Source of the DNA: Diphasiastrum complanatum
Taxonomy: Eukaryota > Streptophyta > Lycopodiopsida > Lycopodiales > Lycopodiaceae
Length of the DNA: 64,000 nucleotides
Assembly: GCA_029204225.1 (NCBI GenBank)
Contig: CM055099.1
Coordinates: 63,673,469-63,737,468 of the forward strand
Direction of reading: 5' to 3'
In this document: one piece after another, positions 7,487 through 63,988 of the stretch
How positions within the stretch are numbered: position 1 is the stretch's first letter
Layout of the letters: each line of letters opens with the position of its first letter
Made by a program: the position numbers and the translations under genes
The notes under the pieces: generated by a model
The model's input: the letters and a program-made list of their open reading frames with translations, nothing else
What the model was told of the DNA's origin: nothing
The model's database searches: none

Positions 7487-7498
7487 GCTCTGATACCA
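7487..7498 (-). other. Copia-A primer-binding site
   Basis: On the minus strand the bases after the 5' LTR read TGGTATCAGAGC, complementary to the 3' end of the initiator methionine tRNA, the standard primer of plant copia elements. There is no spacer between it and the LTR end at 7499. Confidence 0.9.
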
Positions 7499-8149: not shown

Positions 8150-8154
8150 TTTGT

Positions 8155-9610
8155 TTTATTTTCTAATTCCTCTAAATGCATATTTTGTTTTAAATTTTTT
8201 TGGACAATTTGAATGACATGCATAGCTCGAAGCCTCTCATGATATATCAATCACCTTGTTGTTATCTTGGCGAAACTAAACAAGGCAATTAATATATTAC
8301 AAGAAGCTTTGTTTTATAGAGGGCATTCAAATTGTTGAACATTAAAAAAACAAAGACTACATCTTAAAGGAGTTCAAAAATAAGCAAATAAAACTCATTT
8401 CAATTCTCAAACTCACCTAAGAACGACACTTCAACTTCTAGCAAATCATCACAATAGCTTATCACTATCATGGCAAAACTAAGAACAACAAGCCATTACA
8501 TGGCAAAACTAAATTAGCCTTAGTACAATAGCGATCTCATCAGTTTTGAGACAAAAGCTTATTTGTATTCAAGTTCACTTTTTTTTTTTTATGGTTACAG
8601 TTGCGTTTTCATAAAGCAAAAGTAGCAATATGGTTAAATTTGTGCAGGTTGCTTGGCACATTGGCAACAGTTTTGCGTAAAATAAACTAATCGAAACTTG
8701 AATGCAGTTGTCAAATTTGTGCAAAAAGTCCAACTTCAAGAAAACCAAGTATTTTTTCTAATTGGTTCAATTTTTTGACATTTTCTATTTGTTTGTTCTT
8801 GCATCCATTGTTTGACAATAAAATATGGTGTGATTTTTGGCCTTGCCTTGCAACGACAATACTATGTGTTAAGGTTGGTCAATGGAGTTTCAAAGAAAGT
8901 CAACGTTAAAGGATAAATTGTTTTGGGAGTCTCAATTTTTTAGGCTTTGACCTTGGCATGCAACCCACACCCCACCCAGAGTGACTTTTGGGAAATTTTG
9001 GCACAAGCAAGTTGGCTTCTAGGCATGTGAACGCGAAACTTAAATGTTATCCGACAATGTTACTTGCATATTTTCTTACAAAAATGAGAAATACTAGATT
9101 TTTTAGGTTTAGAGTTTCATTCTATTTGTGAATTAAGAATGCTCTATTTGAAGTTTGATCCTTATTTTAAAGTGACCAAGATGTTATAAGAGGATAATCG
9201 TGTGAGGTAGAGTTTCATGCGCACCTCCATCATCTGGTTTTCCAATTGCATTGGCTAATTAGTGTGATCAATTCTAAAGCCAATTACATACGATTCATGG
9301 GAGCTACTTTGAGCAAGCTGATGTGGGATCAAGCTAAGCGTTAAATTGATGAAAATGTGAATCGTCCAATACACATAAAAAGATAAACTGAAAGGTCATC
9401 TATTGATCAGGAGGGTGTATCATGTAAGTGATTAGGTAGCATATGTTGTCTTCTTTGTTGCACACCTCCATAGTCTGTTGTTCCAATTTGTGTTTAGATT
9501 ATTTGTTTGTCTAAAGTAGAGAACTATGTTTTACTCCCCTACATAGACAATATTTTGCATGTCACCAAAAACTTGTCAAATGTTTTCTAGCCCATATATT
9601 TAACTCTCAA
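8155..9610. other. Geneless stretch
   Basis: No protein family, RNA gene or element terminus was recognised on either strand. Open frames are short and without recognisable motifs. The sequence directly after 8154 is the original target site of Copia-A. Confidence 0.6.
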
Positions 9611-9615
9611 TCCAA

Positions 9616-9679
9616 GGGGTCACTCAGTTGGTTAACTTGACATCCAAAGTTTCTTTGGTCTCAGGTTCAAGCACCCCCT
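9616..9679 (+). repeat. tRNA-like sequence, probable SINE head
   Basis: GGGG at 9616 and a terminal CCCCC can pair as an acceptor-like stem. CACTCAGTTGG at 9621-9631 resembles the A box and GGTTCAAGCAC at 9664-9674 resembles the B box of RNA polymerase III promoters. At 64 bases it is too short and poorly paired for a functional tRNA. A tRNA-derived SINE head or tRNA pseudogene fits better. Confidence 0.45.
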
Positions 9680-9732
9680 AAAAACCAAGATGCATATCTT
9701 TAACTCTCTCATTGCGTACAAGCAAGGGTGAA

Positions 9733-10030
9733 AGGCAAGTCAAAGAATTAAAAAATACTTGAGCCTTAATATGTTGTTGCAAACAAGAAAAGGCTAAAGC
9801 CAAATCAAAGAATTCACAAAACCTGAGCATTATTGTTGCTGACAAGTAATGATTGAGGCTAGAGGCCAAATCAAAGAGTTCACAAAACTTGAGCAGTATT
9901 GTTGCTGACAAGCAATGGTTAAGGCCAGAGGCCAAATCAAGGAGTTCACAAAACTTGAGCCTTACTTTCTTGTTGCAGACAATAAAGACAAGCAATGGAT
10001 AAAGCCAAAGCAAAAAATTCAGAAATCTCA
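9733..10030. repeat. 66-bp minisatellite, about 4.5 copies
   Basis: The unit beginning GCCAAATCAAAG recurs at 9799, 9865 and 9931 with exact 66-bp spacing. More diverged copies lie on both sides (from about 9733, and about 9994). Each unit carries TTCACAAAACTTGAGC and TTGTTGCTGACAAG. The array keeps a reading frame open on the minus strand (9678-10031) because 66 is divisible by three; this frame is not considered a gene. Confidence 0.8.
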
Positions 10031-11340
10031 AGCTGTCGTCTAAAGTTTATTTTAGATAAGTTTGAATGAATTTTTTTCTCTCTTTAATCCATCTCTCACT
10101 AGCCCGATTGTGTCATTAGCAAATAGTATCAAATACATTCCTAGCTCTGAAACTTCTTAATGATGTACCAATATCTCTAATTGGCCTATAACTCTTTATC
10201 GTTTTTTTTGCAAACATTGTTCTATGGATTCTGATGATGTTTTTTTTGTGTGTGTTAATCCAACAGACATACTACCACAATAATATCTTGAATGCAAACA
10301 CTTAAAACTTTAATAAAAAATAATAAACTTTGATATAGGGACCATGATTGCTATATTTTATTAAGCTGTTGGAATTTTCAAACATCATGTGATAGCAATC
10401 ACTTGGGAGTTTTGCAATTATTTTGGCTCATATTATTTTGTACTCTATGTATTTTGAATATATTTAACGGTATTGATATGAGTGCTCTTGAATTGCTGAT
10501 TTGTTTGTTTTGCTGCTACTTCTATAAGGAACGTGATATTTGTTTGTGAGGTTAACAATTTAATAATAAATATCGCACTTGCCATTTTAGTGAAATTGTT
10601 GAATTAAAAAAGAAAAATCATGTAGTGTGTTTTGCTTTGTTTAAGATTTAGACAATTGCACTTATTTAGGTTTTTTGTGAAAGATATAAATGGACCAATA
10701 AGTTGTCACTAATAGTAGTTGACCTTCATCTAATTATAATTTTGTGGTTGTGTTTTCTTTTGTAGGACATATACAAAATGCCTTGAATTGGATCAAAACA
10801 TTCTAGAAACTAAAAAACATATAAACTAGTGAAAATAATTCCACCAAACTTAAAGAAAATCACCAAATCTGATGAGGAAATGATGTAATGATCTGATACC
10901 AAAATTGTCATGTGCCAATCTTAGCATTAAAGCATTTAGTCCATGCTTAAAACTCACAAATAGCCTCCTCGTGGTCATTGGTGCTTCTAATTTGCATTTG
11001 GAGCCTTATTACCTTCATTTGGGCCTTACAATTATTATTACAATTTCCACCAATACAAATATGGCGTGGTTTATTAGATTACTTAATTGACTAACTTTAT
11101 TTAATAATCCTACCTTAATTTAGCACCATGACTACATTTAGTAAACTCTTTGGTTGCACACATGGGCTAATTATACACAGGACATGATAGTTTTTGTACT
11201 GAAAAAAACTCGCCAAGAGAAGCAATGTTGGACAAAAGAAATGCACCTACCTATTATCCCATAAGCAAAAACCATCTCTCTCAACCTATGAATATATACA
11301 CAAAATTCTCAATAATTTTCAAGTTCATTAATGGGTGAGC
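10031..11340. other. Geneless stretch
   Basis: AT-rich sequence with no recognisable gene. The longest open frame (10905-11090, plus) shows no family motif. Nothing indicates an element boundary. Confidence 0.55.
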
Positions 11341-37940: not shown

Positions 37941-38012
37941 TGATAGAAGTGGCATCATCCTTCTTCCTTGTATCCAAGGATTGGTGTACATAGCATGTAG
38001 ATCCAAAAATTC

Positions 38013-39100
38013 TTACATCTTTGAGATTGGCTTTTTTCCAAATAGAGCCTCAAATGGTGTGATTCCTCCAATGGCTTGGTTGGGAAATCTATTGCACAAA
38101 AAGTTAGCACAAGTAATTGCCTCACCCCAAAATGGTTTTTGTAGAGAAGCATCTACCCTTATTAAGACTTTAGCACACTCACAAAGAGATCTCTTTTTCC
38201 ACTCGCCCACTTCATTTTGTTGAGGGGTATAAGGACATGATAATTCCCTCTTAATGCCATTAGAATTAAAAAACTCTATCATTCTACTGGAGATATACTG
38301 TGCTCCATTATCACATCTCAATACCTTAATCTTGGTATTAACTTGATTTTCAACTAGAATTTTGAATTTTACAAATGAATCAAACACCAAACTTTTGGAA
38401 GACAAAAGGTAAATCCAAGCATATCTTGAATGATCATCTATAAAAGACACATAATACTTTGCACCTCCATTGGATGCTTGTGAGAAGCTATGCACATCCG
38501 AATGTATGATCTCAAGAGGAGTGTTTGCTCTTTTGGTGGATCTTGAAAAAGGAATCTTATGAGTCTTTAAGACGCTACAAGCCTCACAGTGCTTGCCGCC
38601 TCTTGACAAATGCTTGGAGAGGCCGAGTGCAAGATCCTTTGCGCACATAGATTCCATTGCCTTGAAGTTGGGGTGGCCCAACCTTTTGTGCCATAGCTCC
38701 ACTTTGGTGATCTCCTCCTTTGCCATGTTTAGACTCTCCATTGCCACGTTAACATCTAATTTAAACAATGTACCTTGTTTAGATCCGTTAGCTATGCCAT
38801 CAACATTCTTAAAGATGGAACACCCTCTATGCTTAAATTGTACATCAAGGCCATTATCCATTAATTGGCCAACACTCAACAAATTCTTAGGGATAGAGTG
38901 TACGTAAAGGACATTTTCAAGATTTATCCTTTTGGATGATCCCAAGTACAATGGAATAGTACCTACACGACTTATTCTACACTCTTTGATCCTAGCTGTA
39001 CAAATAAACTTTTTAATATCATAAGCGAGTAGGGTGAAAAAGTAGTTATTTTGGAAATTCATGTGGTAGCTAGCCCCATTATCAATCTACCAAGCTTCAC
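38013..39100 (-). pseudogene. Copia-D-like protease C-terminus and integrase
   Basis: A 349-codon open frame reads ENVLYVHSIPKNLLSVGQLM (end of protease), then ELWHKRLGHPNFKAM and CEACSVLKTHK (HHCC finger). HSDVHSFSQASNGGAKYYVS, FIDDHSRYAWIYLL and PYTPQQNEVGEWKKRSL (catalytic D, D, E region) follow. The usual NGVAER is NEVGEW, keeping the glutamate. Upstream, the protease motif is DNGA instead of DSGA and the preceding W-W-I is broken by a stop, so the protease is inactive. Confidence 0.82.
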
Positions 39101-40035
39101 TTGTGTTGGATTTGGATGATGGTGTTGAGATGGATGCCATTAAGAAAGTTTCTTCTTCATCCTCCTCCTCTTGATGTGCAATGTTGCTTTGCTTGTCTTT
39201 TTGTTCCTTCTTCTTCTTAAAGCATTCTGATACCGTAGTGCCCCTTCTTTCCACAAAAGAAGCATTTGTACTTGGATTTGTATTTCTTCCCTTTGTCCTT
39301 TGAGCTTGATGGTGTATCCTCCTCCTTGGCCTCCTTTTGATGATTCTTCTTTGCTCCATTGTTACACTGTGAAGTTTATCAATTGTAGGCAAAGTGTCTT
39401 GGATGGCAAAACTTTGGACCAAATTTGTGAATTCATCACCTAGGCCATTTAGGATCATCACTTGGACAAGCTCCATATCTTGAATCTTCTCCCCAATAGA
39501 GGTTAAATCTTTGTTGAGAGACTTCATTCTAAGCACATAATTTTGTGCATTTTTCTCACCTTCTCATGCTTTGCAAAATTTGATTTCTAATCATGAAGAC
39601 TCTAGAAGTGTTATTGGATTCATAAATGGATTTGAATGAATTCCATGCCTCTTTGGCCAATGTGCAAGAAGATACTGCCTTCAAAAGGTCATTGCTAATA
39701 TCCATTTTAATGTAATGAAGTGCTATCCTAACTTTCTTCTTGTATCTAATCAACTCTTGTGCATCAAGAGGTTCATCCTCTTCTTCAAACACAAATTCAT
39801 AGAGATCTTGGAGTACAAATAGTGAATCCATTCTCACCTTCCATATGGAATAGTTTGTAGAGTTTAATCTTTCTCTAGGCTCTAGAAGGAAGGCTCCAAT
39901 TGTTCCCATCTTCCCAATGAATTCTACAGATAAATGCTCAAAAAATTGGCTTTGATTTGATCCTAGAAACTCACAAAAGCTTGTCTTGATTATCTCAAAT
40001 TTGGCTTCTAGCCCTCTCAATGGACTTCTAGCCAT
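39087..40035 (-). pseudogene. Copia-D-like gag
   Basis: The first frame (39556-40035) reads MGTIGAFLLEPRERLNSTNY then SIWKVRMDSLFVLQDLYEFV and EAWNSFKSIYESNNTSRVFM. It carries a 41-residue N-terminal extension (MARSPLRGLEAKFEI...) relative to Copia-D gag. A second frame (39087-39536) continues LRMKSLNKDLTSIGEKIQDM and then a zinc-knuckle region that is frame-shifted inside the CCHC box. Confidence 0.8.
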
Positions 40036-41388
40036 GGTTCTAACACTCCCTCACAAAGATGAAATGAAGATAATATGAGGTTCTATCCAAGATCAATCAA
40101 ATCAAGTCAATTTTGACAATTTTTGGACCAAAAAATGGCTAAAAACTCGCTCTTTCCTCTTGATAGTTTCTCAAGACCTATAGATCACCTTTAGAGGGCT
40201 TGATCCCAGCCTTAATTAATTAGATTGTTTTACACAAAGTCAAGGCATACAAACGTGGGTGCTTTTCCTAGATCTAGCACCAAAACACTCATCAAGACCA
40301 ATCACTATGTAATTCTATGGATCTAATTAAAAATGGAGATTTTTTTGAGACTCAAAGGTGCCCACATGTGTGAACAGTAAGAAAATTGATCTTGATTAGG
40401 TAGATCTACAAATTTTGACCCTATCTATCGATTTCTAGTTGGCCCTCCAGCACATATGTCACTCAACCATTAGGATTTAGAGGAGGTAAAGAAGGGGTCA
40501 AATCATGTTTCACTCCTCTCTACCTCGAGTTGATACATATATGAGTCTTAGTTCATTTGTATTAAAAAAGTTTTATGGAGTTAGTGAGATCTCTACACAT
40601 TGTGAGCAATCTTGAGTTTCTCTCTCTACCCAAGTCTTAGTACTTGGATTCTCTCTCTACCTGAGAGGAAGGGTTTTTCACATTTAGTTTTGTGTTGTAC
40701 AAGTCTCCAGACATGTGAATGTACTTGTTTGGTTGATATATGCATGTAATCAAGTGCTCTTGCCTTCTAGATTTGTGAACTAGTTCTTGATTTTCAATCT
40801 ATGTATGATCTTTTGCAATCACCCACATCTTAGGATCACAAACACACTTTTGGGCTGTCCCACACGTGTGAAATTCAACAACACTTTGGCAATCTAAAAT
40901 GGATGTTTTCCACTATTTTTCGAAGCTAGAAGTGCAATAAGACTTCTAATTTGAATTTCATTCAGATCACCAAACCAGTTCATTTTTGCAACTTTTACAG
41001 TTTGCCTATTCTTTCTTGAGCCCACATAAATTTCATGTTCCTCACCTTGCACAAGCTACAAGAAATCTTTTTCCCAAGGAATCATTGAAGTTTCGACATT
41101 TGTAGTTAAAGCTCCTAATTTATAAGGCCAATGCAATTCTTCAATTGATGATGCCTCTTCGAGGTTTTTGTTTTTCGAAATAGTCTATCCACCAATGCTA
41201 ATCAAACTCATTAAAAAACTAAGAAGCTGTTTGAATACTTGATTTTCAAATTTTTTAATGAGGCAAATGGATCAATCTCACGATGTTTTCTTTGCGCCTT
41301 TTATTCTTCTAGCATGGACTTTAAGCGAGACAATGTAACAAGCTTGATTTGAGTAGAAGACATATTGAGCAAAAAATGAACTCCTTTA
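40036..41388. other. Geneless stretch, possible leader/LTR remnants
   Basis: No coding motif. ATATATGAGTCTTAGTTCATTT and repeated TTCTCTCTCTACC near 40550-40660 look like transcription-start DNA of an LTR, and CCACACGTGTGAAATTC lies near 40862. No paired terminal repeat was found. Confidence 0.4.
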
Positions 41389-42249
41389 TGCTGAAAATTG
41401 TCACTTCTCACTTGACATTGGTTCATGTAAATATTGATCAAACATTAGAATATGTTGATGATATGATTCCACACGTGTGGAGCCTGTTCCCACGTGTGAA
41501 AGGATGTACTTTTCATGTTTGTATATATCCAAATTGATTTTGTATCATTCTAGTTAGTGTGAACATGAAATGACTAGTTTTTAGTCAAGTTGACTAGTCA
41601 CCTACAAATTAGCTTTTCCTTGCATGTGCATGAGTAGATGCTCCCACATGACAAGTGGATGTTCACACGTGTGTATAGAGTACTAGAAGATAAGAGTTGA
41701 CCATTTTCCTTAGATCCTATTTTGTAGGGAATATTCCTATATTCTAGGAGACTAGCTTTTTGGATTTTAGTCATATTCTAGAAGGTCAACTATTGGATAA
41801 GGATCAAGGATGGATAAAATGGATAGATCTGAGTGATGTGGCACTCTTCACACGTGTGAAGGCCTGCTGGACTGTACCAGACTCATGGATGTACTTGATC
41901 CATAAAAGGATCATCATTTTGCTAAGAAGATTGATGAGACTTTTGCACTCTACACTTTTGTGAGATTTCTAGTCATTTGTCTTGTGATTTTTATGCATGA
42001 TTGCTATCTAGTATCATTGTACTTGTTGTTTTAGGTGCAGGCCGTACAGTGGACAGTACTCCACACGTGTGAACCGCTCTCACTAAAAAATGATGTGTTG
42101 ATCCATTGCTCTTGCTTAAATCCAAGTGTAGTGAATCTAGATCAAGATCTAATGTGTAGAACTTGATAGACTCATTGATTAAGCAACCAATAACTCTCTA
42201 TGATTGTAAAGTACAATCATTATTGTCCTAAAAACTGTAAAATTTATCA
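41389..42249 (+). repeat. Copia-D 5' LTR
   Basis: This 861-bp LTR starts TGCTGAAAATTGTC and ends AAAATTTATCA. It holds five CACGTG cores at 41472, 41491, 41666, 41851 and 42064, four of them inside the palindrome ACACGTGT. Confidence 0.97.
41472..42069 (+). promoter_or_regulatory. Cluster of five CACGTG (G-box) cores in the Copia-D 5' LTR
   Basis: Five CACGTG hexamers are seen in 600 bp. The recurring longer phrase is CACACGTGTGAA or CACACGTGTGGA. G-boxes bind bHLH and bZIP factors in plants, including those of abscisic-acid and light responses. That these drive the LTR promoter is inference. Confidence 0.55.
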
Positions 42250-42261
42250 TGGTATCAGAGC
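42250..42261 (+). other. Copia-D primer-binding site
   Basis: TGGTATCAGAGC starts immediately after the LTR, complementary to initiator-Met tRNA. Confidence 0.95.
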
Positions 42262-42844
42262 TAAGTAAGAGAGTGATCATTGAATCATAAATCTTGTAAA
42301 GATCATTGGCAAAATTTGTTTTTTGGCCAATACTAGTGAGGGCGAGTTCTTCTAGAGTGATAGTTTGTAATCATTTGGATAAAAACAACTTGGAGGCTGT
42401 GTATGTACTTTTCACACGTGTAAAACTGTACAACAACTTTCAATTCAAGTTACTTTGTGTTTGTTGGTCCCAAAATCACAATACTAATTCATTTTTGGTG
42501 CCTTTTGAAGCATAGTATTGATCTGGATTCATTCTAACTAATGCCTATGACCAAATAGTGTTTTGGATCATTGAAGCATTTATTTTTAGAGTCTAAGAAT
42601 AGATCTTAAGAGGCTGATTTGTTCAGGTCCTTAGTTGAAGTGAAATCTCTAAAAAAAGTGTAAAGCAATTTTTTTGTGAGAGTGAAAGCTAGAAATTTTT
42701 GGTAAGATCTTTGAGTATCATTCAAGCTTGTGTGCTAGTTTGATAGAGACAAGCCTATAGGCATTCTAGTAAGCTTTAGGCCTTTTCATAGATCTTATAA
42801 AATTCAAAAATCTTTGTGATTTTTAAAAGAGCATTCATTCTAAA
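42262..42844 (+). other. Copia-D leader
   Basis: 583-bp untranslated leader before the gag start codon. One further CACACGTGT-like motif (TTCACACGTGTAAAAC) lies near 42412. No conserved open frame. Confidence 0.6.
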
Positions 42845-44398
42845 ATGTCATCCATGGGTGGATATTTGATGGAATCAAGTGAGAGACTCACTTCCACAAA
42901 TTATTCCATTTGGAAAGTGAGAATGGAATCACTCCTAGTGATCCATGATCTATATGACATAGTTCAAGAAGTAGAGGAAGAGCCTCAAACTCCCCAAGAA
43001 CAAGCCAAATACAAGAAGAGAGCAAGATTAGCTCTACATTGCATAAATTTAAATGTATGCAATGTCCTCTTGAAAGAGGTATCTTCTTGTACCTCATCCA
43101 AAGAGGCTTGGGATTCATTAAAGAGCATTTATGAATCCAACAATACTTCAAGAATCCTCATGCTAAGAAATCAAATTTTTCAAAGCATGAAAGGAAGTGG
43201 AGAGAGTGGACAAGAGTATGTTCTTAGGATCAAATCTATTAACAAGGAGTTAAGTGCAATAGGAGAGAAGATCCAAGATCAAGAACTAGTACAAATCATT
43301 TTGAATGGTCTAAGTGATGAGTTTACCAACTTAGTCCAATCATTTGCCATTCAAGACTCTCTTCCATCCATTGAAAAGTTGCACAATGTTCTTGTGGCCG
43401 AGGAGAGTAGGCTTCTACACCTCAAGACAAGAATGGATAGCATGTCACTTAATGGAGGAGAGGAGAAAGCTAACTTTACATCTAAAGGCAAGAAAAAGCA
43501 AAATCCATTCAAGAAAAATCAAGGCAAGGAGGCCGAGATGAAGAATGAAGGATCTACCTCCAAAGGCAAAGTGAAGAACAAGGCAAAACTAAAGTGTTTC
43601 TTTTGTGGAAAGAAAGGACACTTTGCCTCAGAATGCTACTTGAAGAAGAATCAACAATCCAAAAGAGATCAAGGGAACATTGCTCAAGAGGAAGAATATG
43701 AGGATGGATTCAATACATCCTTAATGGTTGCATCTACACCAACTTTAAGTCAAGACACATGGTGGATAGATAGTGGGGCTAGTTCCCACATGTCCTTTAA
43801 CAAGCATTATTTCTCTACTCTTCTATCTTGTAATGACTCTAAGAAGTCAATATACACTGCTAGTGATCAAGCATGCAAGATAGATGGCATAGGATCTATA
43901 CCTCTTTGTTTAGGCACATCTAAAAGGATAGATCTAGATAAGGTTTTGTATGTTCCTACCATTTCAAGAAACTTGCTTAGTGTAGGACAATTAATGGACA
44001 ATGGACTAGATGTACATTTCAAGAATGGAGTTTGTTCCATCTTGAAAAATGATAAGTGCATAGCTAGTGGCATTAAGCAAGGTAGACTTTTCAAGTTGAA
44101 TGCTAATGTTGCAAGTGAAAGTGTGAACTTGGCTAGGGAGGAGCTAACTCAAGTGGAGCTTTGGCATAAGAGATTAAGCCATCCTAATCTTCAATCTATG
44201 AAGTCAATGGCAAGCAAGGAACTAGCTCTCAGCCTACCAAGAACTTTCAAGAAGTGTGGAAAAATGTGTGAGGCATGTGGCCTTGCAAAGTCGCACAAAT
44301 CTTCTTACAAGAAATCTTCATCAAGATCTCTCTCTCCCTTGGATCTCATACATTCTGATGTACATAGTTTTTCACATGCAAGTAATGGAGGGCCTTGA
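42845..44398 (+). CDS. Copia-D gag-protease-integrase N-terminus
   Basis: The 517-codon open frame starts MSSMGGYLMESSERLTSTNY followed by SIWKVRMESLLVIHDLYDIV, typical copia gag. The ATG is the first in frame after the leader. CFFCGKKGHFASEC (about residues 252-265) is an intact CCHC knuckle, and WWIDSGASSHMSF (about residues 299-311) is an intact aspartic-protease site. The integrase zinc finger reads ELWHKRLSHPNLQSM ... CEACGLAKSHK, followed by LIHSDVHSFSHASNGG with the first catalytic aspartate. The frame stops at 44398 because one base is missing from a G run next to GGGCC. The rest of integrase continues in the next frame. Confidence 0.92.
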   Translation: MSSMGGYLMESSERLTSTNYSIWKVRMESLLVIHDLYDIVQEVEEEPQTPQEQAKYKKRARLALHCINLNVCNVLLKEVSSCTSSKEAWDSLKSIYESNNTSRILMLRNQIFQSMKGSGESGQEYVLRIKSINKELSAIGEKIQDQELVQIILNGLSDEFTNLVQSFAIQDSLPSIEKLHNVLVAEESRLLHLKTRMDSMSLNGGEEKANFTSKGKKKQNPFKKNQGKEAEMKNEGSTSKGKVKNKAKLKCFFCGKKGHFASECYLKKNQQSKRDQGNIAQEEEYEDGFNTSLMVASTPTLSQDTWWIDSGASSHMSFNKHYFSTLLSCNDSKKSIYTASDQACKIDGIGSIPLCLGTSKRIDLDKVLYVPTISRNLLSVGQLMDNGLDVHFKNGVCSILKNDKCIASGIKQGRLFKLNANVASESVNLAREELTQVELWHKRLSHPNLQSMKSMASKELALSLPRTFKKCGKMCEACGLAKSHKSSYKKSSSRSLSPLDLIHSDVHSFSHASNGGP

Positions 44399-44931
44399 TG
44401 TATGTAACTTTTATAGATGATTGTACTAGATTCACATGGATTGAGTTACTATCAAAGAAAAGTCTTGTTTATGAAGCTTTTATTAAGTTCAAGTCTCTAG
44501 TAGAGAAACAACTTAGTACTTCTATCAAAGCACTAAGATGTGATAATGGAGGAGAGTACACCTCCAATAAAATGAAAGACTTTTGTGAGATCAATGGTAC
44601 TAAGTTACAATACACTTGTTCCTACACCCCTCAACAAAATGGGGTGGCCGAGAGGAAAAATAGGAGTCTATGTGAGTGTGCAAAGTCCTTGAGGCTTGAT
44701 GCGTCACTTCCCATCTCATTTTGGAGAGAAGCCATAACATGTGCTAATTATTTGAGTAATAGACTTCCTAGTAGTGCTATAGATGAGATCTCACCTTATC
44801 AAGCCTTGTTTGATAAGAAACCCAATGTAAAATATTTTAAGATCTTTGGATGTACTTGTTATGTACACATTCCTTTGGAGACTAGAAGGAAAGAAGATGC
44901 TACCAATCTTTGTTGGCTATGGAGAAAATAG
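44395..44931 (+). CDS. Copia-D integrase core (second reading-frame segment)
   Basis: It overlaps the previous frame by four bases and continues with MYVTFIDDCTRFTWIELL, ALRCDNGGEYTSNKMKDFCE and YTPQQNGVAERKNRSLCECA, giving the second aspartate and the glutamate of the DDE set. The region FWREAITCANYLSNRLPSSA and YFKIFGCTCYVHIPLETR follows. A second one-base shift near 44890 ends this segment. The catalytic set is complete when the two frames are read together. Confidence 0.92.
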   Translation: MMYVTFIDDCTRFTWIELLSKKSLVYEAFIKFKSLVEKQLSTSIKALRCDNGGEYTSNKMKDFCEINGTKLQYTCSYTPQQNGVAERKNRSLCECAKSLRLDASLPISFWREAITCANYLSNRLPSSAIDEISPYQALFDKKPNVKYFKIFGCTCYVHIPLETRRKEDATNLCWLWRK

Positions 44932-46813
44932 CAAGGGATATAGGATATATGATCCTACATCCAAGAAAGTAAAGGTAAGCAAGGATGTACTTTTTGATGA
45001 GTCACAATTTGCTAAGAGCTTGTCAAATGGATCTAACCCATTGTTCATTGAAGATCTTGACAAATCCGAGGAGGATCTCGACAAACCCGAGGAGGATCAT
45101 GACAAACCCGAGGATGGAGATTTGGATCCGAGTCAAAAGGGGCCAAGAAGGTCATCAAGGAGCAAGGCCGAGCCCTCAAGGCTTACCTATGTGGAAAAGG
45201 GAAAGCAAAAGGAAGACTCTACATCTTCTACCTCTTACTCTTTTTTAGCTACATTGATTGAAGAACCATCATCTTTTGAAGAAGCATGTAAATCTAAAGT
45301 TTGGAGAGATGCAATGCAAGTAGAGTATGATGCATTAGAAGAGAATCATACTTGGAATCTTGTAAATCTTCCAAAAGGAAAGAAACCACTTGCATGTAAG
45401 TGGATTTATAAAATTAAGTACAATCAAGATGGATCTATTAGTAAATACAAAGCTAGGCTTGTTGCTAAGGGATTTCTTCAAATAAAAGGATTGGATTATG
45501 AAGAAACATTTGCACCTGTAGCTAAGCTTGTAACTATTAGATTAATCATTTGCATTGCTACTTTGTTCAAATGGGATCTCTACCAAATGGATGTGACAAA
45601 TGCCTTCTTGAATGGCTTCTTAGAAGAGGAAATCTACATGATGCAACCCGAGGGCTTCATCAAGGTTGGTGAGGAGCAAAAGGTGTGCTACTTAAGGAAG
45701 AGCCTATATGGCTTGAAGCAAGCACCTAGAGCTTGGTACTCTAGGTTGCATGATTTTCTCTATTCCCTTGGCTTTGTACTAAGTGCTTATGAACCTTCTT
45801 TATATTTCAAATGTAATGAAGGAAAGATCATCATTTTGGTTCTTTATGTTGATGACATCATTATGACAGGAAATGATGATGATGGCATAAGCAAAGTAAA
45901 AGTTGACTTATCTAGTGAGTTCAAGATGGTAGATCTAGGCTTCCTAAAGTTTATACTTGGGATAGAAGTGTCTAGAAGTAGCAATTGTACTTTCATAAGT
46001 CAATCTAATTATGCTACTTCCATTCTTAAAAGATTTGGTATGAGAGATTGTAAGGGGATTGACACCCCTATGGAGCATGTTGTGAAAGCAACTAATGAAG
46101 GTGATGAAGCATCCTTTGAGGACATCACTCTCTTTAGGAAGCTTATAGGCTCTCTAATCTATTTAACTATCACTAGACCTGACTTAAGTTTTTGTGTAAG
46201 CAAGTTGAGTCAAAGTATGCAAGCTCCTTTAGTTCATCATTGGAAAAGTGCCAAGAGAGTACTTAGATATGTTTCTAGTACTAGATTTTTTGGCATACTT
46301 TATGAAGGATCTAACTTGCACTTGAGAGCCTACTCGGATTCAGATTTTGCAGGAGACAAGATGGATAGAAAGTCCATTAGTGCATTTGCAACATTTCTTT
46401 GTGAAGGAATGATATCTTGGCTTTCCAAAAAGCAAGATACAATCTCACTATCTTCTTGTGAAGCCGAGTACAAGGCATTGACTCAAACAACCAAAGAGCT
46501 CCTATGGCTAAGAAGACTCTTGATGGAACTACATGTGCTAGAGGCCGATGAGATCCCTTACATATTTTGTGACAATCAAGCTTCTCAACAAATTGCTTCA
46601 AATCCTATCTTCCATGCTAGAACAAAGCATATTGAGATAGCTCACCACTTTGTGAGGGAGAAGGTACAATCCAAGGAAGTGCAACTACATCATGTACCAT
46701 CATCCGAATGCATAGCTGATATCTTAACCAAACCATTGTCCAAAGATCCATTTTTTAAGTTAAGACATGCTCTTGGAATTGTAGATAGATGTACACTAGA
46801 TTTGCCAAGTTAG
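44846..46813 (+). CDS. Copia-D reverse transcriptase and RNase H
   Basis: The true reading enters this frame near 44890 at LPIFVGYGENSKGYRIYDP. A linker with the repeated phrase DKPEEDHDKPED follows, then WRDAMQVEYDALEENHTWNL. RT motifs are LACKWIYKIKYNQDGSISKY, ARLVAKGFLQIKGLDYEETF, QMDVTNAFLNGFLEEEIYM, KSLYGLKQAPRAWYSRLHDF and the catalytic LVLYVDDIIMTG. RNase H follows with YSDSDFAGDKMDRKSISAF, SSCEAEYKALTQTTKELLWL, CDNQASQ and HARTKHIEIAHHFVREK, ending ADILTKPLSKD. No residue of the main catalytic motifs is lost. The stop lies next to the polypurine tract. Confidence 0.94.
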   Translation: MDVLVMYTFLWRLEGKKMLPIFVGYGENSKGYRIYDPTSKKVKVSKDVLFDESQFAKSLSNGSNPLFIEDLDKSEEDLDKPEEDHDKPEDGDLDPSQKGPRRSSRSKAEPSRLTYVEKGKQKEDSTSSTSYSFLATLIEEPSSFEEACKSKVWRDAMQVEYDALEENHTWNLVNLPKGKKPLACKWIYKIKYNQDGSISKYKARLVAKGFLQIKGLDYEETFAPVAKLVTIRLIICIATLFKWDLYQMDVTNAFLNGFLEEEIYMMQPEGFIKVGEEQKVCYLRKSLYGLKQAPRAWYSRLHDFLYSLGFVLSAYEPSLYFKCNEGKIIILVLYVDDIIMTGNDDDGISKVKVDLSSEFKMVDLGFLKFILGIEVSRSSNCTFISQSNYATSILKRFGMRDCKGIDTPMEHVVKATNEGDEASFEDITLFRKLIGSLIYLTITRPDLSFCVSKLSQSMQAPLVHHWKSAKRVLRYVSSTRFFGILYEGSNLHLRAYSDSDFAGDKMDRKSISAFATFLCEGMISWLSKKQDTISLSSCEAEYKALTQTTKELLWLRRLLMELHVLEADEIPYIFCDNQASQQIASNPIFHARTKHIEIAHHFVREKVQSKEVQLHHVPSSECIADILTKPLSKDPFFKLRHALGIVDRCTLDLPS

Positions 46814-46826
46814 AAGTGAGGAGGAG
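46813..46826 (+). other. Copia-D polypurine tract
   Basis: GAAGTGAGGAGGAG directly precedes the 3' LTR at 46827. Confidence 0.8.
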
Positions 46827-47688
46827 TGTTGAAAATTGTCACTTCTCACTTGACATTGGTTCATGTAAATATTGATCAAACATTAGAATATGTTGATGAT
46901 ATGATTTCACACGTGTGGAGCCTGTTCCCATGTGTGAAAGGATGTACTTTTCATGTTTGTATATATCCAAATTGATTTTGTATCATTCTAGTTAGTGTGA
47001 ACATGAAATGACTAGTTTTTAGTCAAGTTGACTAGTCACCTACAGATTAGCTTTTCCTTGCATGTGCATGAGTAAATGCTCCCACATGACAAGTGGATGT
47101 TCACACGTGTGTATAGAGTACTAGAAGATAAGAGTTGACCATTTTCCTTAGATCCTATTTTGTAGGGAATATTCCTATATTCTAGGAGACTAGCTTTTTG
47201 GATTTTAGTCATATTCTAGAAGGTCAACTATTGGATAAGGATCAAGGATAGATAAAATGGATAGATCTGAGTGATGTGGCACTCTTTACACGTGTGAAGG
47301 CCTGCTGGACTGTACCAGACTCATGGATGTACTTGATCCATAAAAGGATCATCATTTTGCTAAGAAGATTGATGAGACTTTTGCACTCTACACTTTTGTG
47401 AGATTTCTAGTCATTTGTCTTGTGATTTTTATGCATGATTGCTATCTAGTATCATTGTACTTGTTGTTTCAGGTGCAGGCCGTACAGTGGACAGTACTCC
47501 ACATGTGTGAAGCCGCTCTCACTAAAAAATGATGTGTTGATCCATTGCTCTTGCTTAAATCCAAGTGTAGTGAATCTAGATCAAGATCTAATGTGTAGAA
47601 CTTGATAGATTCATTGATTAAGCAACCAATAACTCTCTATGATTGTAAAGTACAATCATTATTGTCCTAAAAACTGTAAAATTTATCA
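46827..47688 (+). repeat. Copia-D 3' LTR
   Basis: The 862-bp partner of the 5' LTR. Two of the five CACGTG cores are changed to CATGTG here, the rest are kept. It has one extra G relative to the 5' copy (GAAGCCGCTC versus GAACCGCTC). Confidence 0.97.
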
Positions 47689-48049
47689 CTTTAGGAGGTA
47701 GCCATGAAACTGAATTTGAAAATTGTTTGCCCCATAACAATGTAATGCATGTTTCATTAAAGTTGATTTAAAACTGATGTTGAAAGCTAATATCATTAAT
47801 ATTAACTACACAATGCTCCGTCTCATCATGAAAATCATGTGTGTGTTTGATTAACGACACAATTGGCTTTGGCACATACAATTCATAGATAATGCTTTAA
47901 AGCACTAGTAAATAAAATGTCTTTTTGCATCTCAGTCTCTTGAGCAAACAACTAAACATTTGATCAATTTGATCGTGGGTGTGGCCCATCAACAAAAATC
48001 CCTATATTTATTTTTATTTAAAAATTTCTATTAGCATGGACAAGTATGT

Positions 48050-49190
48050 CAAGACAGTTTGATTTTTATTTTTCCTAGCAGTATCGTCAAGCTACAAATA
48101 AAGTGATTTTCACCAAATTTGTAGATTATCTTGTATACAATGCTGATTGTCAAATTTGGATCGATTTGAATGTTGGGATAACTTGGACTCCAAAGTGCCA
48201 TTAAATACAATTGATCCAATAAAATAAACTTGAATAAAATTTTCCTCATTCAAATTTTCTGACACTCTAACAAAATGAGATAACATCATTTTCTTCTGAT
48301 CCATGCCATCAATAACAAGGTCGAGATATTTTTGAGAATATTCTAAACATTTCTTTCGATGTTTGGCCAATTTTTGTCTTTCAATTATTTGTTGATCGTC
48401 GTGCACTTGAAGGGCTTTTGCAGCATCCACTAAAAACACAATTAAAATAATTATAAAAGATTCATTATAATAACATATCAAATATTTTTTCAGAATAAAA
48501 AATTGTAGAAGTTAATTAATCTTTACATTTCTCATGATTGGTCTTCATAAGTTGTTTGATAGATTCTGGCAGATTCTAATCACTCACAAGTAGAACAAAT
48601 TGTCATTCTTTATTTCTTGAAAATCCTTACCAAACCAAAATTCTTTTTTTTTTTTAAATTCTCAAAAAATATGAGTAACTCAAACATGCAACACTACTGG
48701 CTTTGGCGAACTTTTTGTAAACATAAAAAATATATCTAATTTTGTAAAATTATCAGACAAGTGAAAATATAAAGAATTAGATAATTTTTTTTCTCAATGT
48801 ACATTTACAAAATGATTAAGCCAAGTAGTTGCATTCAAAGTATCTAGCTAGACGGTTCGACCTGATAAAGATCCTTTGTAATGTTGGATCTTTTTTAAGT
48901 CGTGCCTATATTCTTTGAGGCCATGAATTTTAGATTACATGAACAGCTTTGTAAGCTTTGCGACAAACCTCCATTACATTTAGAAAATATGAATAAGAGT
49001 TTTTGTCTGGTCTCACTGTTACACACAAATAACAATTCTTTTCATTTTTGCTTCGTAAAAAGAATTTGGATCTCAATTTCAGGATTTCTTTTATACTTAG
49101 TTTCTGCAAAACAAGACGGTGAGCAGCAAATAATATTTCATACCTTTCGAATCTCGGGTCTTGTAATCAATTTTTTGACAATTTGTTAAC
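48050..49190 (-). pseudogene. Transposon-like protein of DUF7869 type, degenerate
   Basis: A minus-strand segment at 48110-48440 reads KHRKKCLEYSQKYLDLVIDG then MDQKKMMLSHFVRV, ENFIQVYFIGSIVFNGTLES and, after a frameshift, NLTISIVYKIIYKFGENH. This resembles the KYLSLIIDGMDQ..KT.LPHF ... GCLFHG pattern of a plant and protist family I associate with DUF7869, often found with transposons. Farther upstream (about 48860-48990) the minus strand reads VCRKAYKAVHVI, LKKIQHYKG and LSGRTV, like the VCR.AFLAI.GI..KRL..L segment preceding that domain. Many stops intervene. The family call is from pattern memory, not from a search. Confidence 0.5.
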
Positions 49191-49199
49191 GTGGGTGAA

Positions 49200-50050
49200 T
49201 ATCTCAAGTCCTTGTTGTATTTCTCTTTTCATTTTGAGTTTGCTTTATCAATTGACCATGTGCCACTTGCGGTTGCCTCAACCATTTGAAAAGGTATTGA
49301 AATTTCTTGATTCCAAATATCAGCTTTGACCTATATTGAGGAATTTCAGATGATAAATAGGTAAATGACGTTGAGCCGTATCCCTTGAGAGTAACATGAT
49401 GAGAATTAAAAGGAGTGGCTTTGTAAAAAAACCTCTCATTAGGCACAACTACTAGAATGGTAGAGATAGAGCTACTTGTCATAGCAACCTTTGAAAAATT
49501 ATAACTTAAGACTTATGTTGAGCATAAGCAAAAAAAAAATTCAAACAAAAAAATATAAATATAATCTATACTAGTCATAGAAGGGATTGAGAATCTATGC
49601 CAACTTCAATAGAGCTGAAAATAAAATAGTACTAAATGTAAAAACAAAAAAACTTGGAAAGGAAATAGATATTTGACATCATTAAAAGTTATGTCTTAAA
49701 TACTATAAGGAGGGAGGGATTGACCTAGGGTTAAGGTTAGGATTAGAATTGACCTAGGGTTAGATTTAGGAATGACCTAGGATGAGGGTTAGGAGTGGGG
49801 ATCTTTAGCATAGTCGCGGAGGGGTGGGACATGTAGAAAATGATCATTTTCATGGTGGGATGTTAAAAAAATTTCTACCTAAAGATCCAATGTGTAGGAC
49901 AAGTCACCTCATTTGTGAATCAGTAAGCGCACATGCTGTCATAGCCATCAGAGCTTCCAATCCCTGCTTTTCTATAGTTGTTTGCATAGCTCTCAGCCTC
50001 AACTTTTGGACTGAGGTAAAAAACAACCTTTTTTCATATTTGTTTTAAAT
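49200..50050. other. Geneless stretch
   Basis: No gene recognised. GACCTAGGGTTAAGGTTAGG and similar phrases at 49720-49800 form a short degenerate repeat. Confidence 0.45.
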
Positions 50051-50056
50051 TGTTCT

Positions 50057-50679
50057 CTATGCTAAGCATGGCCAAAATGTTACTGCAATTGTCAATTACA
50101 CATATTTCAACTTTAAATGTTTTTGAATTAAGTAAAGTGACCAATGCTAGGCATAGCATTTGGACAAAACAATCATTTTTTGCTATGCTCAGCATAGCGA
50201 CAGTGTTGAATTTCATTATGTTGAGCATAGCAAGAGGGTCACATCCTCTTTGCTTCGCTATGAACAGCATAGTGACTCCTTGCAATGTTTTTTAATTGTT
50301 ATGATGAGCATAGCAAGAGGGTCGTGTCATCTTTGCAATGCTGTGCTCAACATAGCAAGCACATATAATGTTTGTCACTTGATATGTTGAGCATAGCAAA
50401 GATGTTGGGTCCTTTTGGCTTCGCTATGCTCAACATAGCAAACACTTGCAAAGTCTATTGCTTGTTATGCTCAACATAGCAAGGAGGTCACTTCCTCTTT
50501 GCTTCACTATGCTCAACATAGCAAGCACTTACAATGTAGATCGCTTGCTATGCTCAACATAGAAGGATGTCACTTTCTCTTTGGTTCGTTATGCTCAGCA
50601 TAACAAGTGCTTACAATGTCCAGCGCTTGCTATGCTCAACATAGCAACGGAAAGTGTAACAAGTTATGCTCATCATAGA
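50057..50679. repeat. Array of 17-bp palindromes on a 41-42-bp pitch
   Basis: The palindrome GCTATGCTCAACATAGC (variants with AGC, TTG or ATG at the centre) occurs about 15 times. Starts read by eye are 50057, 50143, 50182, 50215, 50257, 50298, 50340, 50381, 50423, 50464, 50506, 50547, 50588, 50629 and 50663. From 50215 to 50629 the spacing is 41 or 42 bp without exception. Spacers alternate between type A (AAGGAGGTCACTTCCTCTTT, then GCTTC) and type B (AAGCACTTACAATGTAGATC, then GCTT), so the full unit is about 83 bp. Type A is itself an imperfect palindrome. It is not CRISPR: the spacers are repeated and the context is a plant nucleus. Confidence 0.9.
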
Positions 50680-50689
50680 GAGCTTCAAT

Positions 50690-51890
50690 TTTCTTTTTTT
50701 GAAATATATGTGTTGAGATCCCAACCAAATGTCAAAAATCTACCATTAGCTGTAAAATATCCAATTGAAAATTCAAAATTTCACTTATTTACATTTTGAA
50801 TTTTTAGTAATTCTTTTTACAAAAGGCAAATTATTTAAAAATTTTCGTAGTTTTCATATATTAATATTTAAAATGTCTTTAAAAAATCCTTTCATTTGTA
50901 GATCATATAATCTTTATTAAAAAAATCCAAGGATGTCGAAGATTTCATTCCGAATGTCCAACAAGCCACAAGATGCTCCTATGAAGGACAAAAAAAAATT
51001 CATGTATAAATTTACCAGAGGTGTCAACAATACCAAGTTAACAAAACTGTACATTCATTTAGGAGATAGGCCCATGGAAGTTAGAAAACCTAACGAAACA
51101 CAAGTACATAATTTAAAAATAAAGATTTAAAGATCATAGACAATCCATAGTTACCTCTTTTGTAGTTTTGGTCGACCCTTTTGAATACAACAATGTTGCA
51201 AATTTGACTTTTCTAGTCTAGATTCTTACCATATTTTTGTACTAAAGGGGCATACATAGTTTATAAGCTGAAAGCAATTATCCCAAGAGTATTCTCATGT
51301 AGCTTCTTTCCGAAGTGTTAGTTTCAAAGCCTTTGCTGGGTTGATAGTGGAAGAAGCTAAACTAATTGTTTGGGACCACAACATTAATCAAGATTACAAG
51401 ATGAACATAGCTGATTGCATTTTATTAAGATGATAATGTCAAGTTAGAACTTTAAAGACATGAAGATTTGGAGTAACTAAAAAATGCATACCATTACCAA
51501 TATGGTCAAATGCTTCAAATCGCTGGACACTTGAAAGTTTGGACTAGATTTGAGATTCCTAGAACTATTCTACAAATCAAGTAGGATGGATGGAACTAAT
51601 TCAATAATGGTTGATGCATGCATTGTCCAAAGCATTGTTGCTATCTTCATGCACCCTTCAACATAGTTTTTGGAATATTTGAATTTGACCTCTCTCATGC
51701 CTACATAAGTGGACATTGTTTCGTTAGTGATTTTTATAGTATTTGAGTCTTTCAAATTTTGGTAAATTCTTTGAAAATATAATTTTAGAAGTTTTATGGT
51801 GGCAAGCTATATACAAAATGTCTTCTATATTGGATGAGAAATTGATCGACTTTTCATATTTGCGTCCTAAAGACTACATAATTGATGGTG
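50690..51890. other. Geneless stretch
   Basis: Short frames only; 50933-51130 (plus) and 51570-51755 (minus) are not recognised. AT-rich. Confidence 0.45.
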
Positions 51891-51904
51891 GTGACAATTA
51901 TCGA

Positions 51905-52240
51905 AAATTGTGAATACTGAAAAGCAAATATTTTGAATATTGATCGTGATTATTGTGAATATTGATCCTCAATACTCTTCAATATTGATTGTGGATACTC
52001 CAATAATTGGTCATGGATATTGTGAGTACTATTTGTGATTATTGTGAATACTCTTGATTACTAATCGTGAATACTCTATTACTAATCATGAATATTCTGA
52101 ATACAAAAAGATAAACATTTAGAATACTCATTGTGAATACTGATTGTGAATTTCTAGAGTATTAATCATAAATGCTATTTTGAATAGTAAAATGTTATTT
52201 ATCAGATAAATATTGTAAATATTGATTTTGATTACTCGTG
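51905..52240. repeat. Degenerate AT-rich repeat (GAATATTGATCGTGAATACT type)
   Basis: Repeated phrases GAATATTGATCGTGA, TGTGAATACT and ATTACTAATCGTGAATAC recur with a period of roughly 18-25 bp. Copies are diverged and not strictly phased. Confidence 0.65.
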
Positions 52241-52560
52241 GTGATATCGTTGTGTAGATTTTAATAGTCTACAACAATAACAAAATTTGGCCCATTTTAG
52301 CACAACTGCCCCTGAAACCAATCTTCAAAACTTATGTTGGTCAATGGCAATGAAAATTTTTGCACAAGCGGTAGGAGTATGATAATTTGATTTTGGTAGA
52401 TTAAAGACACTAGCAAAAGAGATGCAAATATGATAATTAGTTTTGATAGATTAAAAATGATAACAAAATTATTCGAAAAGCTTTAACTACTTTTGTGGTA
52501 GCGAGTTTGACAGTGTAAGGTTTTGCAACTTAAAACATTAATGGATCATTACAATAATTT

Positions 52561-52605
52561 TACAAGGCCTTTGTGGCATGATACCACAATGTACTTGTTT
52601 TGAAT
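52561..52605. other. Second copy of hairpin-containing terminus
   Basis: The sequence ACAAGGCCTTTGTGGCATGA followed by TACCACAATGTACTTGTTTT aligns with GTAAGGCCTTTGTGGTACAG followed by TACCATGTCGTTCTTGTTT at 2062-2100. It can fold as TTGTGG/CCACAA. Confidence 0.5.
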
Positions 52606-53104
52606 ATTTTTTTTCCAACTAAGTTTATATAACTCGCAATGCTTGGTCATGCATTAACTATGGTCAAGGGGGAAATGTTGTCAACCATTTACACAAAAAA
52701 ACCTTATATCATAAATTAAGAATAAGGATCATGGTCTTGCACCAATCTCCGTCAAGAAACCAATACCTTAGCGTTTTCATTTAATCCTCTTAGTGGCACC
52801 CCCTCCCAAGAGTTCTTAATGCATAAAACTAACATACCTTTCATGTGCAAGGCACTCTTACAACTCACAACATTGACTTTTGCAAAAACTCTATTGACCA
52901 ACTTGAACACAATATAGTCTTTGTAAGGCAAGGCAAAAAATAGTCAAAATTTACAAGTAATTGCATCTCATCTTACTTATTATTAAGTGTGCAATTTCAC
53001 GTGCTTGCTCCTCTTGACACTTTGGTTCTTAATGTGCTTTTTTAATTGAAAGGAATATGTAGTGGATGCCACATAGTTTTGTGATTGACAATTTCAAGTG
53101 GCAG

Positions 53105-53168
<64 letters not shown>

Positions 53169-54295
53169 TCATGTTTAGAAACTCACTTTATCATTTATAA
53201 AACATCATTTCTCATGTATGACAAATCATTCATCCATATCACTTGCCAAAAATATCACTTTATGATAACTAAGTCATATTTTGTGGAACTACATTCTGTC
53301 TAGCCCAGGTCCCATCTCCTTCAAACTTTGCAATCTTATTTTAAAGCCTTTGTTCTTGTAAATTTTTATAGCTTTGCCACAGTAAGCTATTGTGACGATT
53401 TGCTAAAAGCCGAGGTGTCACTTTGAGATGAGTTTGAGCATATAAATGAGTCTATTTATTTATTTATTTTAGAATGCAATTTTTTTTATAAGTTTTTAAC
53501 AATTTAGGCCATGCATTATTAGAGAGCTTCTTGTGATGTTTAGATCAATGTATAGACAACCTTGTTTTTAAGACCTATAGAAAATGTTGGTGCTTTTTAT
53601 GTTAGGAAAATATTTCCGACCAGTCTAAATCCAAAGGGTCTAGCATTACTCAATAATCACGAGAGGGACTACATTATCACCACAATATGGGCAATATTAT
53701 GTAGGCGCTTCACCTGCGCAATGATCTTCCATTAATTATATAACATTAAGAAATCTCTCAGTGTTGAAAATTTGTCAAAGAGTGTTAACAGAAAGCTTTA
53801 TCAGCTTCTTTGTGAAATACTTCGTAAACGCATATACAACGTACATGCAACAAAATTGCACTGCAGTACCATCATATCATTTCTTTTCAAGTCTGCATGA
53901 GACACACAAGTTGTACTCTGTTTGTTTAAATCATGTCAAAACAATCTTGATGTGAAGGAATCAAGCTCTGCGCAATTGTAGATAGAATCCAGAACTGGTT
54001 CTTGGAGGAAGCTTTCCTTAAGCAATTAGTGTTGAGTTTGACTATGCAAAGAATGCCTCCACCTTCAAAATACATCAGGAGTTACTGCACAAGGTTGACC
54101 GAAAAGATTTCCCAGCACCCAAATCGAAGTTCATTTGTCAACAAATCTACTGTACAGTCACATGGGAAGCAAAAGGAAAATTGCTCGACTTCTCCAATTA
54201 GAAGACTTAAATTTAACATTTCTTGACAACAAATAAACTGCGATCCTTATAAGAAAAATTTCCAGCTGCACCTTAGCCGAGTGTCTTTGTTCAGA
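52606..54295. other. Geneless stretch between repeats and the receptor kinase gene
   Basis: No gene recognised apart from the microsatellite at 53107-53164. The right part (about 54000-54437) is probably 3' untranslated or flanking sequence of the receptor kinase on the minus strand. Confidence 0.45.
53107..53164. repeat. (GA)n microsatellite
   Basis: About 29 uninterrupted AG dinucleotides. Confidence 0.98.
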
Positions 54296-54300
54296 AAGTA

Positions 54301-54423
54301 TAGTCCCCTCCATGAAACAATTTCCAGAGAAGCCCAGAAAATATAGTCCCCTCCACGAAACAATTTCCAGAGAAGCCCAGAAAATATAGTCCCCTCCACG
54401 AAACAATTTCCAGAGAAGCCCAT
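54301..54423 (-). repeat. 43-bp tandem repeat, three copies, in the likely 3' UTR
   Basis: TAGTCCCCTCCATGAAACAA starts at 54301, 54344 and 54387 with an exact 43-bp period and almost no divergence. The array ends about 15 bp downstream of the receptor kinase stop codon in the gene's orientation. Confidence 0.9.
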
Positions 54424-54437
54424 TAAAGCAACAGCAA

Positions 54438-63988
<9,551 letters not shown>

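Follow-up and report, generated by a model that had tools for sequence, protein, structure and literature searches.

An array of regularly spaced palindromes between the divergent genes of a dispersed mobile element in Diphasiastrum complanatum

The DNA analysed here, referred to below as the window, is the whole stretch of 64,000 nucleotides taken from contig C8 of the 1.74-Gb genome of the lycopod Diphasiastrum complanatum. Plant-like features of the window are its Copia elements and the N-terminal domain of an ALE2-type kinase. The window also contains a row of 17-bp palindromes, called dyads in the following, many of which succeed each other at a nearly constant distance. What such a row is for was not obvious: it could be a series of sites for a dimeric protein, a source of hairpins or an ordinary satellite. 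An earlier, sequence-only reading of the window, which had named these possibilities, is partly supported by the present analysis; it missed the mobile element in which the array is located.

The palindrome array in the window

The presence of about 15 related dyads between positions 50057 and 50679 is borne out by motif matches, by a repeat family and by autocorrelation. A search with GCTATGCTCAACATAGC allowing up to three mismatches gave 15 matches, which correspond to 12 distinct sites, three of them being matched on both strands; the mean for shuffled sequence was 0.12. The dyads are carried by a 22-nt repeat family with 15 copies at 50054-50682, the start-to-start steps of which are 90, 36, 33, 42, 41, 42, 41, 42, 41, 42, 41, 41, 41 and 34. 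Counted in the register of the dyads, the first three steps are 85, 41 and 33 and the remainder are unchanged. Eleven consecutive dyads had been reported to lie 41 or 42 bp apart, and ten such steps were indeed counted at 50215-50645. Autocorrelation of the fragment 50215-50646 gave 0.61 at 83 and 0.42 at 41, both above the highest value found in 500 single-base shuffles (0.36). No open reading frame of at least 100 amino acids covers the array, in agreement with the earlier statement that no gene does. The coordinates of the array and of the surrounding features are listed in Table 1.

Other parts of the initial description need to be corrected. The spacers do belong to two families and are arranged as direct 83-bp dimers, and Tandem Repeats Finder likewise reports an 83/166-bp array; the description of the A spacers as near-palindromic fits only some of the five, with self-complementarity ranging from 0.40 to 0.72. 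The arms of the dyads are paired in part: 7 or 8 of the 8 pairs are formed in 4 of the 15 dyads, and in 8 of the 15 the pair next to the innermost one is mismatched as C.A or T.G. The location of all dyads on one face of the helix is possible and depends on the helical repeat. At 10.4 bp per turn the vector strength is 0.92 for the 11 regular dyads and 0.83 for all 15, and at 10.5 bp per turn it falls to 0.50 and 0.57, respectively.

Table 1. Features of the element copy in the window
Feature	Position	Strand	Details
Left segment of the element copy	40883..41386	.	75-81% identity in L033, L036, L038, L044, L050
Copia LTR retrotransposon inside the element copy	41389..47688	+	LTRs 41389-42249 and 46827-47688, 98.7% identical
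Element segment right of the Copia element	47689..49313	.	Directly adjoins the left segment in L033, L036, L044, L050
DUF7869 gene remnant	47840..48445	-	61.5% identity to L044:3912-4541:-, 6 stops
Weaker matching segment, located between minus-strand gene and array	49336..49711	.	Copy comparison
GGTTAG-rich tract of degenerate telomere-like sequence, left of the array	49735..49792	+	
Dyad array (15 dyads, 17 bp each), decayed from SCTATGCTNAGCATAGS	50057..50679	.	Motif and repeat-family comparison
Dyad no. 1, TCTATGCTAAGCATGGC	50057..50073	.	
Eleven regular dyads	50215-50645		Ten steps, each 41-42 bp
Sample dyad, GCTATGCTCAACATAGC	50423..50439	.	G-C as outer pair; a single C.A mismatch (pair 2 from the centre)
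Right-hand part of the element copy, to the homology stop	50802..51408	.	Copy comparison
Plus-strand gene remnant	51023..51409	+	48.8% identity, residues 159-287 of L044:6841-7836:+, 5 stops

A dispersed element with two divergent genes

A search of the genome with the left flank of the array, in which 40 of the 1011 candidates were scored, matched at least 65 pieces; most of them are about 76-78% identical over 48510-49319. One copy, on contig C18, is 100% identical over all 1541 bases. The stretch fetched around it (L051, G000:C18:9201000-9210900) is 99.8% identical to positions 47338-57219 of the window over its whole 9.9 kb, and represents either a large segment that was duplicated recently or a duplicate due to the assembly. 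The set used for comparison comprised 20 stretches of 9.9 kb, namely 19 other copies and the C18 duplicate of the window. The copies are related, and the pairs L044/L040 and L037/L038 are nearly identical, so counts over this set are not independent.

The longest stretch in common is about 8 kb (E49 2216-10320). Eleven copies begin at a sharp left terminus, ACACGATGACATTTGTTTTGGG, with small changes in some of them, and the flanks outside it are unrelated except within the duplicate pairs L044/L040 and L037/L038. A 24-mer of this terminus has 159 and 137 exact copies in the genome, compared with 0 for the control. The array is a non-coding part of a dispersed mobile element, and such dispersed copies with a sharp terminus are in keeping with a class II DNA transposon. 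On the right side the copies break off at different points. L042 and L033 agree up to about 25 bases from the edge of L033, where they seem to diverge, and L042 continues there into another repeat. No facing inverted partner was seen near the left termini among those listed, which are a part of the 296 places. A search for the inverted left terminus with up to six edits gave no more than four hits in the extended copies, the right end lying beyond the stretches searched; two are on the left end itself (L044 and L040) and two are weak internal matches (the window and its duplicate). With respect to the class of the element, no MULE transposase domain was detected by Pfam among the element ORFs scanned (10 and 7, partly the same), nor was a Rep/helicase domain of Helitrons in the ORFs scanned. 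The left end, which is the end examined, begins with ACACGATGAC and is neither a CACTA start nor the TC of Helitrons.

The element carries two divergent genes. The product of the leftward gene contains the domain DUF7869, with E values of 1e-45 and 9e-36 in two copies. DUF7869 is a family of unknown function in Pfam, and no paper naming it was found in the literature searched. A search of the genome gave 2953 first-look candidates, 150 of which were scored and pass the cut-off; none was found in 14 control genomes, and the domain appears from these numbers to be hugely expanded in this genome. Several long open frames are present among the candidates, for example at C237:76970 and C15:15336407. 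By eye the DUF7869 protein has an RNase-H-like look and may be regarded as a putative transposase; it has no match in the PDB, and its predicted structure has a pLDDT of 37. The product of the rightward gene ends in an N6_N4_Mtase domain (L044:9192-9863, PF01555, E 1.3e-10, over the cut-off). In the PDB this domain has matches to RsrI, CcrM and MboIIA, and a DIPY motif was recognized by eye in the piece ahead of it. The AlphaFold prediction of the plus-strand protein has a pLDDT of 32, and the predictions for both proteins are of poor quality. Inspection by eye also revealed a ParB-like stretch, FFVLGGIHSLQVRKQL, in this protein. It gave no ParB-family hits in Pfam, NCBIfam, PHROGs or the PDB, and hhalign against the single ParB sequences of N15 and P1, a weak test, was not significant. 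Four phage methyltransferase genes, examined for a fusion with ParB, showed no ParB domain in Pfam at E 0.01. Every test of the ParB similarity was negative or without power, and it is not claimed here.

The copy in the window is dead: it is split by a Copia element, and both of its genes are remnants. These remnants flank the array on the expected strands, minus to the left and plus to the right, and the homology to the compared copies stops at the right end of the plus-strand remnant (about 51409). Further Copia elements are located at 2212-8149, with terminal direct repeats at 2212-2862/7499-8149 that are 97.8% identical, and at 37949-40035. The 620 bp to the left of the array are rich in TTAGG/CCTAA words, which exceed the local rate in 14 of the 15 copies compared, for example L035, L050, L039 and E47 (not in E36). 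In 12 of the 15, at least one 6-bp step gives these words a telomere-like arrangement.

Conservation and change of the dyads

Taking at least four dyads as an array, 13 of the 19 other copies have one. The six without are L032, L037, which retains three dyads, L040, L043, L044 and L046. In L044 and L040 (near oriented position 6324) the entire array has been lost at a clean junction, which shows that a copy of the element can persist without it. Even so, it is in these two copies that the plus-strand gene has its longest listed open frames (332 amino acids). According to tblastn, pieces of both genes flank the array in nine of the 13 copies (E36, E42, E47, E49, L033, L038, L041, L048 and L050), and in all nine the DUF7869 gene is to the left on the minus strand and the plus-strand gene to the right. 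Of the remaining arrays, L035 and L045 show by this test the left gene only, L039 the right gene only and L034 neither. The place of the array within the element is constant wherever it can be judged. An ordinary free satellite, which had been considered an equal possibility, does not agree with such short arrays, located in the compared copies within a dispersed element.

In total, 157 dyads were pooled from the 13 arrays and the window; they include those of three small clusters located at other places in L033 and E42. Each array contains 5 to 15 dyads, and the dyad consists of eight pairs around one free base (C in 69, G in 49, T in 26 and A in 13 cases). Among the 140 steps, 88 are of 40-42 bp and 17 of 54-56 bp, with 52 in all falling outside 40-42 bp. 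Four copies (L035, L050, L034 and L048) start with a dyad like that of the window, TCTATGCTTAGCATGGG or one base off, followed by a step of 84-85 bp. L019, another copy that is divergent (67-71% identity), carries dyads of the G-C type; a step of 42 occurs twice in it, among others that are irregular (73, 58, 83 and more). The word GCTATGNNNNNCATAGC occurs 1875 times in the genome, compared with 7 times for its reversed control, and the places listed include clusters as well as many single GCTATGAGAAACATAGC dyads. These single dyads, for example L016-L018 (C1:40905, C1:1435067 and C1:2959479) with one dyad each, seem to belong to another dispersed repeat and were set aside. The exact 17-mer was found in 3 viral and 12 bacterial stretches, one match each, which by our own estimate is about the random expectation, and these matches were likewise disregarded.

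The dyads are more conserved than the sequence between them. In six copies the first five dyads are 84-94% identical, compared with 61-88% for the four spacers and 62-87% for the left flank, and dyad identity exceeds spacer identity in all 15 pairs, in a comparison that favours conservation since the copies were selected for a shared step pattern and the dyad motif allows one mismatch in eight core bases. The array of L035 and its flanks were also aligned in a motif-blind manner with 20 other records (19 copies if the window and its C18 duplicate are taken as a single one), five of which aligned too little. In all 15 sufficiently aligned records the dyad columns exceed the spacer columns, and the flank columns are below the dyads as well, though the aligner may still favour repeated words. 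The margin ranges from 0.02 in the window (0.89 for dyads and 0.87 for spacers) to 0.18; the values are 0.93 and 0.75 in L048 and 0.94 and 0.76 in L033. The spacers differ between lineages in sequence and in arrangement, and the dyads and their step are kept. In 8 of the 13 arrays at least two spacer pairs form a nested inverted repeat, which turns the array into one large inverted repeat: the paired spacers are 0.87-1.00 identical in E36 and 1.00 in L038, compared with 0.59-0.72 for the best of 40 shuffles. E47 and E49 have one such pair each, and no inverted arrangement above shuffles was found in L034, L041 and L048. The large inverted repeat, which is also absent from the window, was accordingly rejected as an essential feature of the array.

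The outer pair of the dyad distinguishes the window from the other arrays. It is G-C in 8 and C-G in none of the 15 window dyads, and C-G in 107 and G-C in none of the 126 dyads of the 13 other arrays, from which it appears that both halves of the dyad have changed together between lineages. A test for compensatory changes in the arms, as had been proposed, gives an excess of pairing in this outer part. At pair 8, 122 dyads are paired compared with 107 expected under independence, and an excess is also present at pairs 9 and 10 just outside. Pairing at pairs 1 to 7 is not above the expectation, because they are nearly invariant or, in the case of pair 2 (109 paired, 115 expected), subject to one-sided decay. 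In dyads with an otherwise intact centre, the inner C has become T in 35 of 101 CTG contexts and in 1 of 161 other contexts (Fisher p about 1e-15, which is overstated as the copies are related). Such C-to-T change at CTG is typical of silenced plant elements with CHG methylation, and it accounts for most of the C.A mismatches. The variation of the three central bases, which had been described as varying with the arms kept paired, is thus mostly a product of this decay together with one free central base, and its interpretation as a paired code was dropped.

These observations also bear on the rival account in which the array is a passive minisatellite that arose from a palindromic seed in a non-coding part of the element, is propagated with it and binds no protein. 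The direct 83-bp dimers of the window and the Tandem Repeats Finder result would be expected of such a repeat, as would the range of dyad numbers and the steps outside 40-42 bp. Wholesale homogenisation of repeats can also keep dyads alike, and an outer pair that changed once could then have spread through gene conversion. The spacers, however, vary between copies under constant dyads and a constant step, the outer pair is altered on both sides together, and the array keeps its place in the element; we consider this account unlikely.

Proposed role of the array

The dyads are about four helical turns apart between divergent genes, the spacers have been turned over and the outer pair shows a lineage-wide two-sided change; we therefore favour a reading as cooperative sites. 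The dyads are probably docking sites for a DNA-binding protein. With moderate confidence we propose that the array serves as the cis-region between the two genes of a mobile element and that its dyads bind a dimeric, perhaps element-encoded, protein cooperatively. A dimer would sit on each dyad, with each half-site reading about eight bases, and the spacing of nearly four turns would bring many dimers side by side. The bound region would serve both divergent promoters. The binding protein would most simply be encoded by the element itself, the candidates being the DUF7869 protein and the plus-strand protein ending in the N6/N4 DNA methyltransferase domain, and once bound it would control transcription, methylation state or mobility. 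Cooperative binding of a dimer had been suggested from the window alone; the conservation of dyads over spacers, the near-constant spacing and the two-sided change of the outer pair favour it.

The dyads might instead be sites of a dimeric transcription factor of the host that drive both divergent genes, the array being a stolen bidirectional promoter. The array is intergenic with divergent genes on either side, the nested inverted spacers of 8 of the 13 arrays provide each gene with a like upstream half, and the TTAGG/CCTAA words to the left are akin to a plant promoter motif. A dyad of 17 bp is however long for a host factor, and an element-encoded partner that changes alongside would more readily account for the switch of the outer pair across a whole lineage, which makes a host factor quite improbable. 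A structural role, in which hairpins or a large cruciform of DNA or RNA act in the manner of a replication origin or as a source of small RNA, is highly improbable: dyads and nested inverted repeats (one pair in E47 and E49) could fold, but the inverted arrangement is missing from L034, L041 and L048 and replaced by direct dimers in the window, few window dyads pair well, a loop of one base makes a 17-bp dyad ill suited to form a hairpin, and no Rfam family reaches the gathering score in the window.

Rows of protein-binding sites are known from other systems. In CACTA/EnSpm elements the TnpA sites are located in subterminal repeats. These are likewise short repeated sites for an element-encoded protein, which is putative in the present case; the sites described here differ in being internal, between divergent genes, in an element with a left end other than CACTA and with no inverted partner seen. 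Bacterial and phage parS, iteron and operator arrays also consist of protein sites lined up close to the genes they act on, for example the 19-bp RepA iterons annotated in the P1 record at steps of about 31 bp. They belong to prokaryotic replicons, and the likeness is one without shown homology. The nearest functional parallel is provided by the VANC target motifs of the VANDAL transposons of Arabidopsis, which according to the sections of the article available to us are short motifs arrayed at high density in non-coding parts of the transposon, with arrays gaining and losing units and the motif changing between subfamilies (PMC5735166). The array described here is similarly non-coding, and its motif differs between subfamilies. 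Palindromes are not mentioned anywhere in that paper (PMC5735166), and the element studied here has no MULE domain in the ORFs scanned; the likeness is one of array layout and motif change, and an anti-silencing effect of the VANC type, in which an element protein binds the motif and lowers methylation, would be hypothetical here.

The nearest genetic parallel is found in algal transposons such as Sola1-1_Ec32 of Ectocarpus, which, in the available part of the source, encode a protein with ParB-like and N4/N6 DNA methyltransferase parts; its authors suggest that proteins of this kind bind the transposon encoding them and modify it (PMC12477816). In Sola1-1_Ec32, also a large element, the genes for the methyltransferase and the transposase lie on opposite strands (PMC12477816). 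This algal element is filed as Sola, whereas the putative transposase of the element described here has DUF7869; the ParB-like part is below significance here, and no target array is described for Ectocarpus in that part of the text. Fusions of ParB-CTPase folds to N6_N4 methyltransferases are reported, in the portion of the article at hand, to be frequent in phages (PMC12704722), and 66 genes of a red seaweed encode an N6_N4_Mtase domain, with no tie to transposons made in the accessible text (PMC12115072). A palindrome array of this kind in a DUF7869 element was not described in the titles and abstract openings searched.

A more specific version of the proposed role is that the array is the self-recognition site of a DNA-modifying system of the element, the protein of one divergent gene binding the dyads and methylating them or their surroundings. 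We put it forward tentatively, as a possibility with a limited chance of being correct. The dyad core reads CTNAG, its middle base being free, and is in this respect shaped like the short gapped sites recognized by methyltransferases, for example GANTC in the case of CcrM. The switch of whole arrays between C-G and G-C would be explained by self-recognition, because dyad and reader co-evolve. If this were true, N6 adenine or N4 cytosine methylation would mark the DNA of the element or shield it from CHG silencing. In the available part of the study on the algal DNA-binding and methylation accessory proteins no target is named (PMC12477816), and the conserved dyad array between the DUF7869 and methyltransferase genes would be an obvious candidate target for such a methyltransferase protein.
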